The notes under the pieces are model-generated. The model made no database searches. It saw only the letters and a list, made by a program, of their open reading frames with translations, and was not told the DNA's origin. 36,927 bases of DNA from Thermoplasmatota archaeon (lineage in GTDB: Archaea > Thermoplasmatota > Thermoplasmata > Halarchaeoplasmatales > Halarchaeoplasmataceae): positions 1 to 36,927 of the forward strand of contig JAGXLF010000009.1 in NCBI GenBank assembly GCA_018334835.1, in the 5' to 3' direction. Below, piece by piece: positions 1,080-9,950 of the stretch. The translations under genes and the position numbers were made by a program. Within the stretch, counting starts at the first letter, position 1, and the number at the start of each line of letters is the position of its first letter.

Positions 1080-2957
1080 ATGGAAAAGCACAGCGCTCAC
1101 GACTCTGTAGAAGGGATGTATGATAAGGTAAAAGAAGACGGTATGACCAACGTTCACGATAGATACGACGCGATGGAGAACGTCAGGTGTGATTTCTGCG
1201 CTAAAGGTACAAGATGCAACATATGTTCTCAAGGTCCATGTAGGATCGTTGATGGTGTCACGGAAAGAGGTGTCTGCGGTATAGATAAAGACGGCATGGT
1301 CATGAGGAACCTGTTGAGAGTTAACAGCATGGGTACTTCCGCTTACACTTATCACGCAAATACTACAGCTAAGACTTTGAAGGCTACGGCAGAAGGTAAA
1401 ACTATATTCGATATAGAGGACGAGGAGAAATTGAACCAGTTAGCGGAAAGGATCGGACTAGACACTTCTAAAGATAAATACGAATTGGCTAGTGATCTAG
1501 CTGATTTTATGCTCGAAGAGATAAATAGAGATAGTGAAGAAACCTCTGAGGTACTCAAGAAGTTCGCTCCAGAATCACGGCAAAAGGTTTGGGATGAACT
1601 CGATATAGCTCCAGGTGGACCACTCCATGAACTGATGGATGTTAAAACCAGCGTCATGACCAATGTAGACAGTGATTATCAAAGCATGGCTCTCAAGACA
1701 TTGAGGATGGGACTAGCTACGTCTTATGGCTCTCTAACTTTATTGGAGGAGGTCCAAGATATATTATTCGGAACTGCAGAGCCTCATGAAGCCGAAGTGG
1801 ATATGGGTATTTTGGATCCAGATTATGTCAACATCTTACCTAACGGCCATGAACCTTTCATGGGAGCCGCGTTGATAAAAATCGCAAGAAGAGACGAGGT
1901 ACAGGAGAAAGCTAAAGAAGTCGGAGCAAAGGGGATCCACATAGTGGGTTCCATAGAAACAGGTCAGGAATTGATGCAGAGATTCGAAACCGATGATGTT
2001 TTTGTAGGATTGACGGGAAACTGGCTGAATGAGGAGTATGTTCTTGCTACTGGAGCAGTTGACGCTTTCGTCGCTGATATGAACTGTACTGTTCCCACAG
2101 CTGGCGAATACGCCGAAAAATATAACTCAAAGATAATACCGGTTACGAAACTTGTGAATATACCAGGTGTGGATCACGATATAAATTACAAGCCTGAAAA
2201 AGCCGAAGAACAAGCCATGGAAATCATCAAGAGAGCGATAGAGAATTTCAAAAAGAGAAAAGGAAAAGAGACTACGGTTCCGGAAAACAAACAAGATATT
2301 GTAACGGGGTTTTCACCAAAGGCTGTTGTTGAAGCACTCGGTGGCACTTTAGATCCTCTGCTCGAGCATATACAGAACGGCAACATAAAAGGTATTGTGG
2401 CCCTGGTAAGTTGTACCACATTAGATAACGGACCACAGGACGAAACGACGATAAAAGTTGCGGAGGAACTCATCAAAAGGGACATTCTGGTATTAAGTGC
2501 GGGATGTGGAAATGCTGGATTACAAGTAGGTGGTTTAACATCTCTTGATGCGGTAGAAAAGGCCGGAGAAGGACTCACAGCAGTTTGTGAAGCCCTGGAA
2601 GTTCCACCTGTACTGAGTTTCGGTACTTGTACCGATACGGGAAGATTGATCAATCTAGTTTCGACTGTAGCTGATGCCTTGGATGTCGATCCGACTCAAC
2701 TTCCTGTCGCTGTGACCGCTCCAGAATATATGGAGCAGAAAGCTACTATCGCCGCTGTAGCGGCTATAGGTTATGGACTCTACACCCACGTCTCTCCAAC
2801 ACCTCCAGTAACGGGAAGCGAGAACGTTGTGAAGTTATTGACAGAAGACGTTGAAGAACTGACCGGCGGTAAATTAGCTGTAGGAGACGATCCAGTAACT
2901 ATAGTCGATGGTATCGAAGATCACATCGATAAGAAAAGAGAAGAACTAGGACTCTAA
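1080..2957 (+). CDS. cooS: Carbon monoxide dehydrogenase catalytic-subunit family protein (CooS-like, non-canonical C-cluster ligands)
   Basis: 625 aa; RCNICSQGPCRI, NGHEP, DMNCTVP, VSCTTLDNG, SAGCGNAG, FGTCTDTGRL and PVAVTAPEYMEQKA match CooS landmarks; GICCTGNE is replaced by GSIETGQE. Confidence 0.9.
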   Translation: MEKHSAHDSVEGMYDKVKEDGMTNVHDRYDAMENVRCDFCAKGTRCNICSQGPCRIVDGVTERGVCGIDKDGMVMRNLLRVNSMGTSAYTYHANTTAKTLKATAEGKTIFDIEDEEKLNQLAERIGLDTSKDKYELASDLADFMLEEINRDSEETSEVLKKFAPESRQKVWDELDIAPGGPLHELMDVKTSVMTNVDSDYQSMALKTLRMGLATSYGSLTLLEEVQDILFGTAEPHEAEVDMGILDPDYVNILPNGHEPFMGAALIKIARRDEVQEKAKEVGAKGIHIVGSIETGQELMQRFETDDVFVGLTGNWLNEEYVLATGAVDAFVADMNCTVPTAGEYAEKYNSKIIPVTKLVNIPGVDHDINYKPEKAEEQAMEIIKRAIENFKKRKGKETTVPENKQDIVTGFSPKAVVEALGGTLDPLLEHIQNGNIKGIVALVSCTTLDNGPQDETTIKVAEELIKRDILVLSAGCGNAGLQVGGLTSLDAVEKAGEGLTAVCEALEVPPVLSFGTCTDTGRLINLVSTVADALDVDPTQLPVAVTAPEYMEQKATIAAVAAIGYGLYTHVSPTPPVTGSENVVKLLTEDVEELTGGKLAVGDDPVTIVDGIEDHIDKKREELGL

Positions 2958-4541: not shown

Positions 4542-4940
4542 TTGTTATATAGTGAAGCGATGTGTAAAGATTCAACATCCAACTGTCATAAGCACCCTGG
4601 TTATCCCGAGGGAAGATGGCTTCATTTCTTGATCCTCAGAGTGGTTTGTGAAGAACCTCTGCATGGATACGGGATAATAAAAAAGATAGAAGAGTTGAGC
4701 GAAGGTAGACATGAAATAAAATCAGGGACGATGTACACCACTTTGAGAAGGATGGAGAAGAAAGGATTGCTAAAATCTGAATGGGAAGAAAGTGAGTCTG
4801 GACCTGATAAAAGAGTTTACAGTGCGACAGAAGAAGGTAGAGAACATCTGAAACGATGGTTGGAGATGATAAAAGAACGAAAAAGGATGATGGAAAAGAT
4901 GACGAGTTTTTATGAAAAAGAGTTTGGAGATGAGGAATAA
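4542..4940 (+). CDS. PadR-family transcriptional regulator
   Basis: LHGYGIIKKIEELSEGRHEIKSGTMYTTLRRMEKKGLLKSEWEESESGPDKRVYSATEEGREHL is a PadR signature; start may be Met at ~4560. Confidence 0.88.
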   Translation: MLYSEAMCKDSTSNCHKHPGYPEGRWLHFLILRVVCEEPLHGYGIIKKIEELSEGRHEIKSGTMYTTLRRMEKKGLLKSEWEESESGPDKRVYSATEEGREHLKRWLEMIKERKRMMEKMTSFYEKEFGDEE

Positions 4941-4955
4941 AGGAGGTGAGAAATT

Positions 4956-5243
4956 ATGGAAATATTCGACTTGAAGTCGATGGAAGAAAAACAAGAGATA
5001 TATAAAGAGGAAGAGTTCAAGATAAGACATATACCCCTTTCAGAAGGAGAAAAGATACCGCCGTGTGAGATGCCCACTTACGTGATATTCTACGTACTTG
5101 AAGGAGAAGCTGAAGTCACGGTAGATGATGAATCGGTCACTTTGTCAAAAGGAAAAGGTCTTATCACAGAACCGGCAACGCTTTCAATGGAAACTAAAGA
5201 AGGCGTTAAGATACTAGGGATACAAATATCAAAGGGTGAATAG
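4956..5243 (+). CDS. Small cupin-domain protein
   Basis: 95 aa; VIFYVLEGEAEVTVDDESVTLSKGKGLITEPATLSMETKEGVKILGIQ; preceded by aggaggtga SD. Confidence 0.8.
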   Translation: MEIFDLKSMEEKQEIYKEEEFKIRHIPLSEGEKIPPCEMPTYVIFYVLEGEAEVTVDDESVTLSKGKGLITEPATLSMETKEGVKILGIQISKGE

Positions 5244-5726
5244 ATGAGCATTACAGCTATCTTCATCAATCTATTCGCTCTAGTCTGCTTCATGTACGGA
5301 GTTTATAGAGACAGAGAGAAAGCTGTAGAGTCGTTGAAAAAAGCGGCTTTTTCCTTCTTCAAGATCCTACCGACGGTTCTGATAATAATAGTCATCATCG
5401 GATTGATGCTCGGATTCGTACCGCCTTCGGAGATATCGAGGTTCGTGGGAGAGCAGTCAGGTATATTCGGTGTTTTGTTGGTGGGTGTAGTGGGATCTAT
5501 CCTGCATATCCCAGCTTTGGTTTCGTTCCCATTGGCTGCTTCGATACTGGACAGCGGTGCGACCGTTACAGCTGTAGCCGCTTTCATCACTACTTTGACC
5601 ATGATAGGTATGGTCACGTTGCCTTTGGAGATTAAGAAATTGGGCAAGAAATTTGCTCTCTTGAGAAACGGTTTGAGTTTTGTAATCGCTGTTATCATAG
5701 CGCTAATAATGGGTGTGATTCTGTGA
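5244..5726 (+). CDS. Half-size permease (ArsP_1/DUF318-like), N-terminal half
   Basis: 160 aa; GLMLGFVPPSEISRFVGEQSGIFGVLLVGVVGSILHIPALVSFPLAASILDSGATVTAVAAFITTLTMIGMVTLPLEIKKLGKKFALLRN. Confidence 0.78.
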   Translation: MSITAIFINLFALVCFMYGVYRDREKAVESLKKAAFSFFKILPTVLIIIVIIGLMLGFVPPSEISRFVGEQSGIFGVLLVGVVGSILHIPALVSFPLAASILDSGATVTAVAAFITTLTMIGMVTLPLEIKKLGKKFALLRNGLSFVIAVIIALIMGVIL

Positions 5727-6262
5727 AAGAAGAGAAAAAGAAAGAGCAGAAGAAAAAGATGCTCCGGGACTGGCTCATATTTGCCGGGATGGTGGTGGTC
5801 GCTGCAGTCCTGATTTACCTGTATCCAAGCAAACAAGAACCAGTGATATCAGCGTCTTTTGATTACCTGTCCGAGATGATATTCATCCTTCCGGCTGTCA
5901 TGGTCCTGATGGGATTGTTCTCGGTATATATACCTAAAGATACTGTGGTCAAATACTTCGGTAAAGCTTCTGGAATCAAGGGATTCTTTCTCGCGATCCT
6001 TTTCGGAACTCTACCGACTGGACCGTTGTACGTGGCATTTCCCATGGCCTCGACCATGATCAAAAAGGGTGCAAGGATCAGCAACATAGTTATGTTTCTC
6101 TCAGCCTGGGCGTGCATAAAAATACCGCAGGAGATGGTCGAACTACAGTTTTTAGGTCCTGAATTCATGCTTGCCCGTTTATTTTTGACCATCATCTTCG
6201 TTGGATTGATGGGTCTGGTTATTGAATGGATTATAGATAAAACTGGCGGTGAGGAAGATTGA
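5723..6262 (+). CDS. Half-size permease (ArsP_1/DUF318-like), C-terminal half; GTG start overlapping the upstream stop (GTGA)
   Basis: 179 aa; ILPAVMVLMGLFSVYIPKDTVVKYFGKASGIKG...GTLPTGPLYVAFPMASTMIKKGARISNIVMFLSAWACIKIPQEMVE. Confidence 0.78.
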   Translation: MKEEKKKEQKKKMLRDWLIFAGMVVVAAVLIYLYPSKQEPVISASFDYLSEMIFILPAVMVLMGLFSVYIPKDTVVKYFGKASGIKGFFLAILFGTLPTGPLYVAFPMASTMIKKGARISNIVMFLSAWACIKIPQEMVELQFLGPEFMLARLFLTIIFVGLMGLVIEWIIDKTGGEED

Positions 6263-6481: not shown

Positions 6482-7351
6482 ATGAACAAAAATAAATCCC
6501 AATTACAGGAACTAATAGGTGAAGTTTTCAAACTTGAAGATCTGATCGACTATCAGAAAGGAGCAGTAGTCAGTAGAACACTCGTCGATAAAGATCAGGT
6601 AACTTTGACTGTTTTCGCTTTCGATCAAGGTCAGACTTTGAGTCAACTACCTCCACCTGAAGGAGGAGGCTTGTGATATGGCAGGACCAGACCACAGAGA
6701 CAATTTAATTACCAGTGTGCTCCACTCTATCCCGCAGAACGGAAACGGAGAGGCACGTAGCTTCACGTTCGCTTCAACGCACCTGATTCAGGGGCCAGTT
6801 GACCATGGCCCGCACACGCAGGGAACGGAACATAGTCAGTTGTTCCGTCGTTCCTCGCGGAACAGCTTTTGCCCGGCGTGCGGGTTTGTATCTCTTCCAC
6901 AGTGGCGTAACGCAACCGTAGCGGTTTTCTCTCCGTTTCGGAGAGTGCCTTTATGGTGCAGCCTGCTGTGCTCAGATACAGTGTACCAATATCATGCTCC
7001 CTGTATTTAAGGTTTGGTCGGGGAGGGGTAAGTGAAAGTGGCATTCCTCCTCTCCCCGCAGTGCTAACGAGGATGAAGGGAATTGATTCCCTTATTCTCT
7101 CGGCAGGTATGCCTCGAGACTGAAAGGATGTAGTCCTGCACATGAAGGAAGAAGCCTCCTGCCTGTGTTAAGGTGAACATACCGCTCCACACGATGCTCT
7201 CCTTAAAGTATTGGCCGGGAAGGGAAAAGTGATAATCGATAAAGAAAATCATGAATTAGATGAAGGAGAAACGATAGTTATGCCAGCAGAGGTGCCTCAT
7301 GCTGTGGAAGCTACAAACAAATTCAAGATGTTTTTGATCATGGTGAAATAG
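6482..7351 (+). pseudogene. Cupin gene interrupted by a 531-bp insertion; excision gives a continuous ~112-aa cupin
   Basis: 5' part reads MNKNKSQ...VFAFDQGQTLSQ; reading resumes after 7178 as H-TAPHDALLKVLAGKGKVIIDKENHELDEGETIVMPAEVPHAVEATNKFKMFLIMVK*. Frame is exact once 6648-7178 is removed. Confidence 0.85.
6648..7178. mobile_element. ~531-bp hairpin-rich insertion, probably a non-autonomous or decayed IS200/IS605-like (PATE-like) element; orientation unresolved
   Basis: Precise interruption of the cupin ORF with no target-site duplication beyond a shared AAC (left flank GTCAAC, right end GTGAAC); subterminal hairpins (6650-6669 at the left end); composition is visibly more GC-rich than flanks; many internal perfect stems. 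Confidence 0.6.
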
Positions 7352-8234: not shown

Positions 8235-8639
8235 TCAAACCTCAAATTCGGTTTTGATCTTCTCTAGTATTTCATCTAGGTGTTCTTTTCCATAGATATC
8301 TCTATACACGTTTAAAAACCCCAATACCATGTTTTCTGCACTTGAACCTATATTCTTAATCCTCACTTCTCTTTCCTCTAGTTCGTCCATACCCTCCTCT
8401 GTTAACTGATAATATTTTCTATCCTCGGGTTCACGATCCGCTCTTTCTATGAATCCGTTTTTTTCCATCCTATTCAATGCACCATAGATTGTGCCGTAAC
8501 TTGGTTCCCAATGTCCGTTAGATTTCTCTTTCATCTTCTTCAAGAGTTCATACCCGTAAGTGTATCCTTTTTCTTCAATGATCTTCAATATAAGATAGCT
8601 TATCATCTCACTAGGTATCCTCTTCTGCATTTTAAACAC
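8235..8639 (-). CDS. PadR-family transcriptional regulator
   Basis: YTYGYELLKKMKEKSNGHWEPSYGTIYGALNRMEKNGFIERADREPEDRKYYQLTEEGMDELEER. Confidence 0.9.
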   Translation of the reverse strand: MFKMQKRIPSEMISYLILKIIEEKGYTYGYELLKKMKEKSNGHWEPSYGTIYGALNRMEKNGFIERADREPEDRKYYQLTEEGMDELEEREVRIKNIGSSAENMVLGFLNVYRDIYGKEHLDEILEKIKTEFEV

Positions 8640-8748
8640 TCAATCATATCACATTTATAAGGATATTTGATTTTTGCGTGGTTAAATTTATATATAACGT
8701 TGTGTTGCATTATCTAACGAAGTATTACATAACGTAAGGTGTTTAGTA

Positions 8749-9231
8749 ATGGATATAACAACGATTGGATTGCTTGTTTTGGCTGCATCTCTATTGATAT
8801 GGTCTACGTTAAAAAATAAGAAGAAAACCAAGAAAGGTCTAGGCGTAGCTAAAAACATGTTCAAGGGGATAGCGGTACAGATAATCTCTATTTTAGCTTT
8901 GATCGGTCTCTTTTTGACTCTTGTACCCCCAGAAACGATAAGGGTATTTTTAGGTGATACTAGTGTTATCGTTTCTACATTGATATCGGCCTCTTTTGGG
9001 ACGGTCACACTTATTCCAGCCTTCGTGGCTTTTCCTCTTGCTGCTTCTCTAGTCGATGCAGGAGCACATGTGGTTTCGATGGCTGCATTTATCACAACCT
9101 TAACCATGGTCGGATTCATCACTGCCCCCATAGAGATAGAGTACTTCGGCAAGAAATTTACTCTAGTTAGAAACGTTTTAAGCTTTCTAGCAGCGATCGG
9201 TATCTCACTTGGAATGGGGTTGATACTTTGA
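8749..9231 (+). CDS. Half-size permease (ArsP_1/DUF318-like), N-terminal half; paralogue of 5244..5726
   Basis: 160 aa; LVPPETIRVFLGDTSVIVSTLISASFGTVTLIPAFVAFPLAASLVDAGAHVVSMAAFITTLTMVGFITAPIEIEYFGKKFTLVRNVLSF. Confidence 0.78.
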   Translation: MDITTIGLLVLAASLLIWSTLKNKKKTKKGLGVAKNMFKGIAVQIISILALIGLFLTLVPPETIRVFLGDTSVIVSTLISASFGTVTLIPAFVAFPLAASLVDAGAHVVSMAAFITTLTMVGFITAPIEIEYFGKKFTLVRNVLSFLAAIGISLGMGLIL

Positions 9232-9950
9232 ATTTAAAAATGATAAAAGGATGGATGAAAGATAACAAGGAGGCAACGGTCACTATATTTGCCTATCTTT
9301 GTGTTTTGATTTATTCACCTTCTTTATTTCTTGATAGTTTGAGAATAATTTCGTTTTACTTTATAGAAATGCTCGAGATTTTACCTGCTATATTCATAAT
9401 CATGGGTTTAGTAGAGGTTTGGGTTTCTAGAGAAACTATATTGGGTATATTTGGTAAAGGAGCTGGAATAAAAGGAAGATTTGCTTCGGTCTTGGTTGGT
9501 TCTTTCTCAGCTGGTCCTATCTATGCGGCATTTCCGGTATGCTACACTCTGCTAAAAAAAGGATCAGCTGTATATAATATAGTTATAATATTGAGTGCTT
9601 GGGCTGTGGTAAAGGTCCCTATGTTGATAGTTGAAGCACAATTTATGGGTCTGTCCTTCATGGGAATAAGATACATCTATACGGTACCAGCTATAATCCT
9701 TATCGGGATAATCACTGGAAAAGTGATCAGTAAGGAGTATATAGTGAAAAACTCTAATAAAGAGGGTCTCTTGGTTGAAAAGATAAATCAAGTATTACCA
9801 GGAAATAACTGTAGAGCTTGTGGATATAAATCCTGTCGATATTCAGCTGAAAAAATAGCTGAGGGAGATGAAAGCCCTAATGTATGTGTTTCTCTAGATG
9901 AAAAAGCAAAAAATAGCATAGAAGAACTCATCGAAAATTCGCTTCAATAA
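9228..9950 (+). CDS. Half-size permease, C-terminal half, fused to an RnfB-like [4Fe-4S] (PF04060-type) domain; TTG start overlapping the upstream stop (TTGA)
   Basis: Permease part parallels 5723..6262 (AGPIYAAFPVCYTLLKKGSAVYNIVIILSAWAVVKVPM); tail CRACGYKSCRYSAEKIAEGDESPNVC = C-x2-C-x4-C-x16-C. Confidence 0.8.
   Translation: MNLKMIKGWMKDNKEATVTIFAYLCVLIYSPSLFLDSLRIISFYFIEMLEILPAIFIIMGLVEVWVSRETILGIFGKGAGIKGRFASVLVGSFSAGPIYAAFPVCYTLLKKGSAVYNIVIILSAWAVVKVPMLIVEAQFMGLSFMGIRYIYTVPAIILIGIITGKVISKEYIVKNSNKEGLLVEKINQVLPGNNCRACGYKSCRYSAEKIAEGDESPNVCVSLDEKAKNSIEELIENSLQ

Follow-up and report, generated by a model that had tools for sequence, protein, structure and literature searches.

A cupin gene interrupted by a probable PATE-like, non-autonomous IS200/IS605 derivative with a putative TnpB guide RNA scaffold in a Thermoplasmatota archaeon

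Core-deleted IS605 derivatives, known as PATEs (palindrome-associated transposable elements), are common in Haloquadratum, as a comparison of two strains showed (PMC3119063). Loss of the core of IS605-type transposons gave rise to some PATEs, one of which keeps a C-terminal tnpB remnant; PATEs are often invaded by small mobile repeats (PMC3119063). In the omega-RNA of the ISDra2 TnpB, bases −6 to −2 pair with bases −106 to −102 (PMC10097598). IStrons such as CdISt1 have IS200/IS605-type ends and lie inside genes 3' of a pentanucleotide, and a dedicated survey found none in Archaea (PMC4227781). AmaTnpB has TCAC as its transposon-adjacent motif (TAM; PMC10278001), and in Sulfolobus TnpB7 the sequence TTCAC is the right-end motif, not the TAM (PMC11043419).

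Here, we analysed a window (the whole stretch of DNA, 36,927 nt) from a Thermoplasmatota archaeon, in which the ORF of a cupin gene starts at 6482, enters foreign sequence and resumes before 7351. Five observations, namely an exact boundary, a target motif, ends shared with an intact TnpB element, a second copy at another TTCAC and remnants of tnpB, make it very probable that 6642–7172 is a PATE-like, non-autonomous, internally deleted IS200/IS605 (IS1341, tnpB-only) derivative on the minus strand that was presumably inserted as a single strand by Y1 acting in trans. The host gene and the element were delimited as follows.

6482–6641, plus strand: 5' part of the cupin gene, 53 codons and one base, ending in ...QTLS (from the ORF and the orthologue alignment)
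6642–7172, minus strand: non-autonomous element of IS200/IS605 type, 531 bp, with its left end at 7172 and its right end at 6642 (from orthologous empty sites and multi-copy ends)
7173–7177, minus strand: TTCAC target or transposon-adjacent motif on the host-gene side, adjoining the left end (GTGAA on the plus strand; same flank in L002 and L003, CTCAC in L011)
7173–7351, plus strand: remaining 3' part of the gene, from GTGAAC (which completes S, then EHTAPH...) to the stop codon

The original prediction, that a 531-bp insertion splits the gene and that its excision restores the reading frame, held for the split and for the length, since taking out 531 bp gave an intact 112-aa cupin; the position that it gave, 6648–7178, had to be moved by 6 bp. 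Because the blocks GTCAAC (6642–6647) and GTGAAC (7173–7178) differ at a single base, two in-frame joins are possible: keeping the left-hand block (6648–7178 out) gives LSQHTAPH, and keeping the right-hand block (6642–7172 out) gives LSEHTAPH. Glu occupied the join position in 14/14 intact cupin orthologues of the same family (45–76% identity). The nearest orthologue, L034 of the same genus, has the empty site TTGAGTGAACATACCGCTCC, which matched the join made by removing 6642–7172 at 20/20 bases. The orthologue data thus fix the DNA-level boundary at 6642–7172, for which the expected reading of the empty allele is TTGAGTGAACATACC. The predicted lack of a target duplication was borne out by the same exact match, and the empty site that had been sought was recovered letter for letter in L034; the empty sites come from other species and not from a sister strain. 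No empty copy of the cupin target was found in the archaeon's own assembly, and in the stretches retrieved from relatives, the genes next to the cupin showed no synteny. Both halves of the cupin gene are free of other lesions, and the gene is now disrupted by the element.

In minus-strand orientation, the element begins directly 3' of TTCAC and terminates in GTTGAC; elements of the IS200/IS605 (Y1, single-strand) type have the same layout, starting just 3' of a short motif and ending in such a terminus. Single-strand insertion beside a short motif had been anticipated correctly, with the wrong motif assigned: GTCAA(C) belongs to the element itself as its right-end cleavage motif, and the target is TTCAC, which stays outside the element (7177–7173, minus strand) with no target duplication, as the L034 empty site also indicates. 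The features within the element and at its right-hand junction were placed as follows.

7052–7145, minus strand: structured repeat of ~94 nt nested in the left end; the left end of L011 lacks it
7031–7046, minus strand: left-end motif GAATGCCACTTTCACT, also present in TnpB-bearing elements
7004–7011, minus strand: archaeal TATA-like box CTTAAATA at the position of the tnpB promoter in L003/L011, with a putative promoter role
6906–6932, minus strand: tnpB relic 1, RENRYGCVT (cf. TnpB residues 243–251; tblastn, weak alone and colinear with relic 2)
6751–6819, minus strand: tnpB relic 2, ACAGHGQLAPESGALK (cf. TnpB residues 372–394; tblastn E 4e-4), overlapping the omega-RNA stem-loop
6792–6811, minus strand: omega-RNA stem-loop GGGCCA-TGGTCAAC-TGGCCC, its loop GTCAAC complementary to the last six bases of the element
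6709–6725, minus strand: right-end block GTGGAGCACACTGGTAA, conserved with TnpB elements (GTGGAGTTCACTGACAA)
6650–6669, minus strand: subterminal right-end hairpin CCTCCTCCTTCAGGTGGAGG
6642–6647, minus strand: GTTGAC, the motif for right-end cleavage, at which the omega-RNA scaffold also has its 3' end
6622–6641, minus strand: predicted guide TCAAAGTCTGACCTTGATCG, which is cupin gene sequence, placed by position from TnpB biology (PMC10278001)

The search for further copies that had been suggested for this genome was productive, as the left end recurred with E values of 1e-105 to 1e-50 (identity 91% over 272 bp in L002, 92% in L003 and 96% in L004). Since the left end recurs and TTCAC, or a variant of it with one base changed, precedes its clear copies, the insertion is beyond chance; L004, an ends-only copy of less than 300 bp without tnpB, has TCCAC directly at its flank and TTCAC a few bases farther out. 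L002 carries the non-coding interior of the window copy past the promoter as far as the end of its contig, which cuts it off so that its right end is unseen. The derivative therefore lies at two different TTCAC sites, in the window and at L002, which implies that it moved after loss of tnpB began. Subterminal palindromes were found at both ends, with no terminal inverted repeats; the arms of the left-end hairpin are visible in L011 and are split by the nested repeat in the window copy. The right end of the element aligned with the right ends of L003, L011 and L026, and both ends are homologous to those of the coding elements L003 and L011.

L003 is a full IS1341-type element with an intact TnpB of 412 aa (match to guided_TnpB, NF040570, E 5.8e-52), and L011 is a second TnpB element of the same genome, also with an intact TnpB. 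L003/L010 and L011 have the same left and right ends as the window element, the same TTCAC/CTCAC flank, a GYTGAC terminus and the omega-RNA stem-loop; in contrast, the window element has lost tnpB except for two fragments. None of its ORFs matched a protein family, and all that is left of a transposon gene is the two tnpB relics, both on the minus strand and colinear, the larger aligning as GHGQLAPESGALK in the window with GNGQLALKSGTLK in TnpB. The only named record recovered in the search for relatives of this TnpB was a Thermoplasmata MAG, with no viral record among the results.

The retained fragment of tnpB (relic 2) coincides with the omega-RNA stem-loop, which takes the form GGGCAA-CGGTCAGC-TTGCCC in L003/L011 and GGGCTA-CGGTCAAC-TAGCCC in L026. 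In each case, the loop sequence (GTCAAC or GTCAGC) is perfectly complementary to the six nucleotides (GTTGAC or GCTGAC) at which its own element ends. Across four sequences, 48/48 cells of the stem-loop and pseudoknot were paired, compared to 12–46% in slid versions, and compensatory changes affected two pairs, a stem position with three pair types and a pseudoknot position with two; because only four sequences were available, this covariation supports constraint without proving it. In 10/3000 shuffles, a 6-bp stem arose with GTCAAC in its loop, and under a strict pseudoknot scan an exact six-base pairing of this kind did not turn up in the other TnpB subfamilies that end in GTCAC. A 3' hairpin thus lies within ~10 nt of the predicted guide, and the terminus can form a pseudoknot with the upstream stem-loop. 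With its promoter-like box, right-end hairpin and pseudoknot kept, the element still looks, as judged from its sequence, able to make a TnpB guide RNA.

Compared to the PATEs of Haloquadratum walsbyi, such as HqIRS71, the window element likewise has transposase-free IS605-type ends, near-terminal palindromes, no target duplication, a target motif outside the element and a C-terminal tnpB remnant (PMC3119063). It differs from them in sequence and in belonging to a different archaeal class, and its omega-RNA pseudoknot partners were seen to be kept and to covary. A pseudoknot of the same type, in which the bases just before the guide pair with a stem-loop upstream, is found in the omega-RNA of ISDra2 TnpB (PMC10097598), although the distance from loop to end is ~157–162 bases in the window element compared to ~102–106 in ISDra2, and the window element encodes no protein. 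Because this class has already been described in Haloquadratum, the finding is ordinary in kind: stripped-down elements are known, and the window element is a tidy new example and no surprise. With it, the PATE class, described in haloarchaea, reaches a Thermoplasmata lineage. The insertion has exact boundaries and is apparently recent, an empty site matches it, and its genome also contains a TnpB-bearing relative, which makes it testable whether elements without TnpB retain a functional omega-RNA and are kept in place in trans.

Under the preferred reading, a Y1 transposase supplied in trans would have inserted the element as single-stranded DNA 3' of TTCAC on the antisense strand of the cupin gene, and insertion without target duplication would have disrupted that gene. 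Mobilisation in trans by TnpA is presumed, as no intact TnpA (Y1) was found in the 84%-complete assembly, which holds only one such gene, with four stops; intact TnpAs of sister genomes lay in neighbourhoods without a detectable match to the ends of the element. More speculatively, an omega-RNA carrying the cupin guide might be used by one of the intact TnpBs of the genome to cut an empty cupin allele, so that the element would be retained. As TTCAC contains the TAM of AmaTnpB (PMC10278001) but serves as a right-end motif in Sulfolobus TnpB7 (PMC11043419), it is a candidate TAM for the L003 TnpB. A bolder version, to which we give a minority chance, is that the element may act as a mobile solo guide RNA, which shed tnpB, targets the empty cupin allele through its omega-RNA and borrows TnpB from L003-like elements, and would thus be a parasite of TnpB retention.

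An alternative to the retention step alone, leaving the identity of the element untouched, is that the element is an inert relic in which the omega-RNA and the ends persist from a recent insertion with no activity in trans. The destruction of tnpB and the failure to find an intact TnpA in the assembly agree with this, as does the finding that IS1341-type elements in Haloquadratum are mostly pseudogenes (PMC3119063). However, the movement implied by the shared derivative at the window and L002, and the exact match of the pseudoknot partners despite decay of the coding sequence, speak against inertness, and we regard the two sides as evenly balanced.

It is very improbable that the right end is instead a plus-strand HEARO RNA belonging to an IscB element and not a minus-strand TnpB omega-RNA. 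A weak match to that family begins exactly at 6642 and covers the full length of the model, and true HEARO loci are present in sister genomes; yet the match scored 20.8 bits relative to a gathering score of 83 (RF02033), and the agreement is limited to the terminal ~32 bases, that is, the hairpin and cleavage motif common to ends across the superfamily. Farther in, the sequence aligns with the right ends of TnpB elements and holds a tnpB relic. HEARO identity was rejected on comparison with L084, a genuine HEARO locus in a sister genome, which shares the terminal hairpin and GTTGAC and has a different interior. HEARO RNAs over the gathering score were seen at L079, L081, L082 and L084 in sister genomes, and none above the cut-off was found in the archaeon's own genome. 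Matches to mir-7094 were taken as chance hits to G-rich hairpins.

The seamless join had also led the original prediction to consider removal at the RNA level, in which the insert would leave the cupin transcript as an IStron, a group I/II intron or a bulge-helix-bulge intron and the gene would still work. The in-frame join and the lack of other lesions in the cupin halves would suit this idea, but a seamless joint is expected anyway, because single-strand transposition 3' of TTCAC neither adds nor removes target bases, and the TnpB-side orientation of the element is antisense to the cupin. Rfam returned no match of the element to an intron family (group I, II) at the gathering score or at E ≤ 1, and bulge-helix-bulge introns were judged by eye. 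In contrast to IStrons, which it resembles in its ends and in its position inside a gene 3' of a pentanucleotide, the window element has no detected group I intron and an archaeal host. With the boundary set at the DNA level by orthologues and no IStrons found in Archaea by the dedicated survey (PMC4227781), we consider RNA-level removal very improbable. An assembly or binning chimera, which might be suspected in a fragmented assembly where copies of the element often lie at contig ends, is scarcely credible, as joining the two flanks yields a single intact gene with a junction that is biologically exact.

The ~94-nt repeat nested in the left end showed compensatory changes at five base pairs and had no Rfam match. 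A covariance model gave 33 matches, some of them weak, in 12/16 genomes of the family, and the repeat was also present in L002, L003, L004, L020–L023 and L029. It may be a structured RNA or a small mobile repeat, and its nesting in the left end seems to mirror the invasion of PATEs by small mobile repeats (PMC3119063).

The interrupted cupin is flanked by two clusters (4542–6262 and 8235–9950), each with a PadR-like regulator and paired half-size permeases, those of the 4542–6262 cluster being ArsP-type. Right ends resembling that of the window element were seen at L005 (~1494–1790, minus strand) and L019 (1494–1584, minus strand); L005 looks like an ends-only element of ~290 bp with a TTTAAATA box upstream, its left end being judged by eye. 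Short repeats with GTGAAAGTGGCATTC and a TATA-like box, as in tnpB left ends, occur at L006, L007, L008 and L028 (contigs C106, C74 and C50, and C18 of genome G002), several of them near contig ends, and probably represent another family of ends-only elements.
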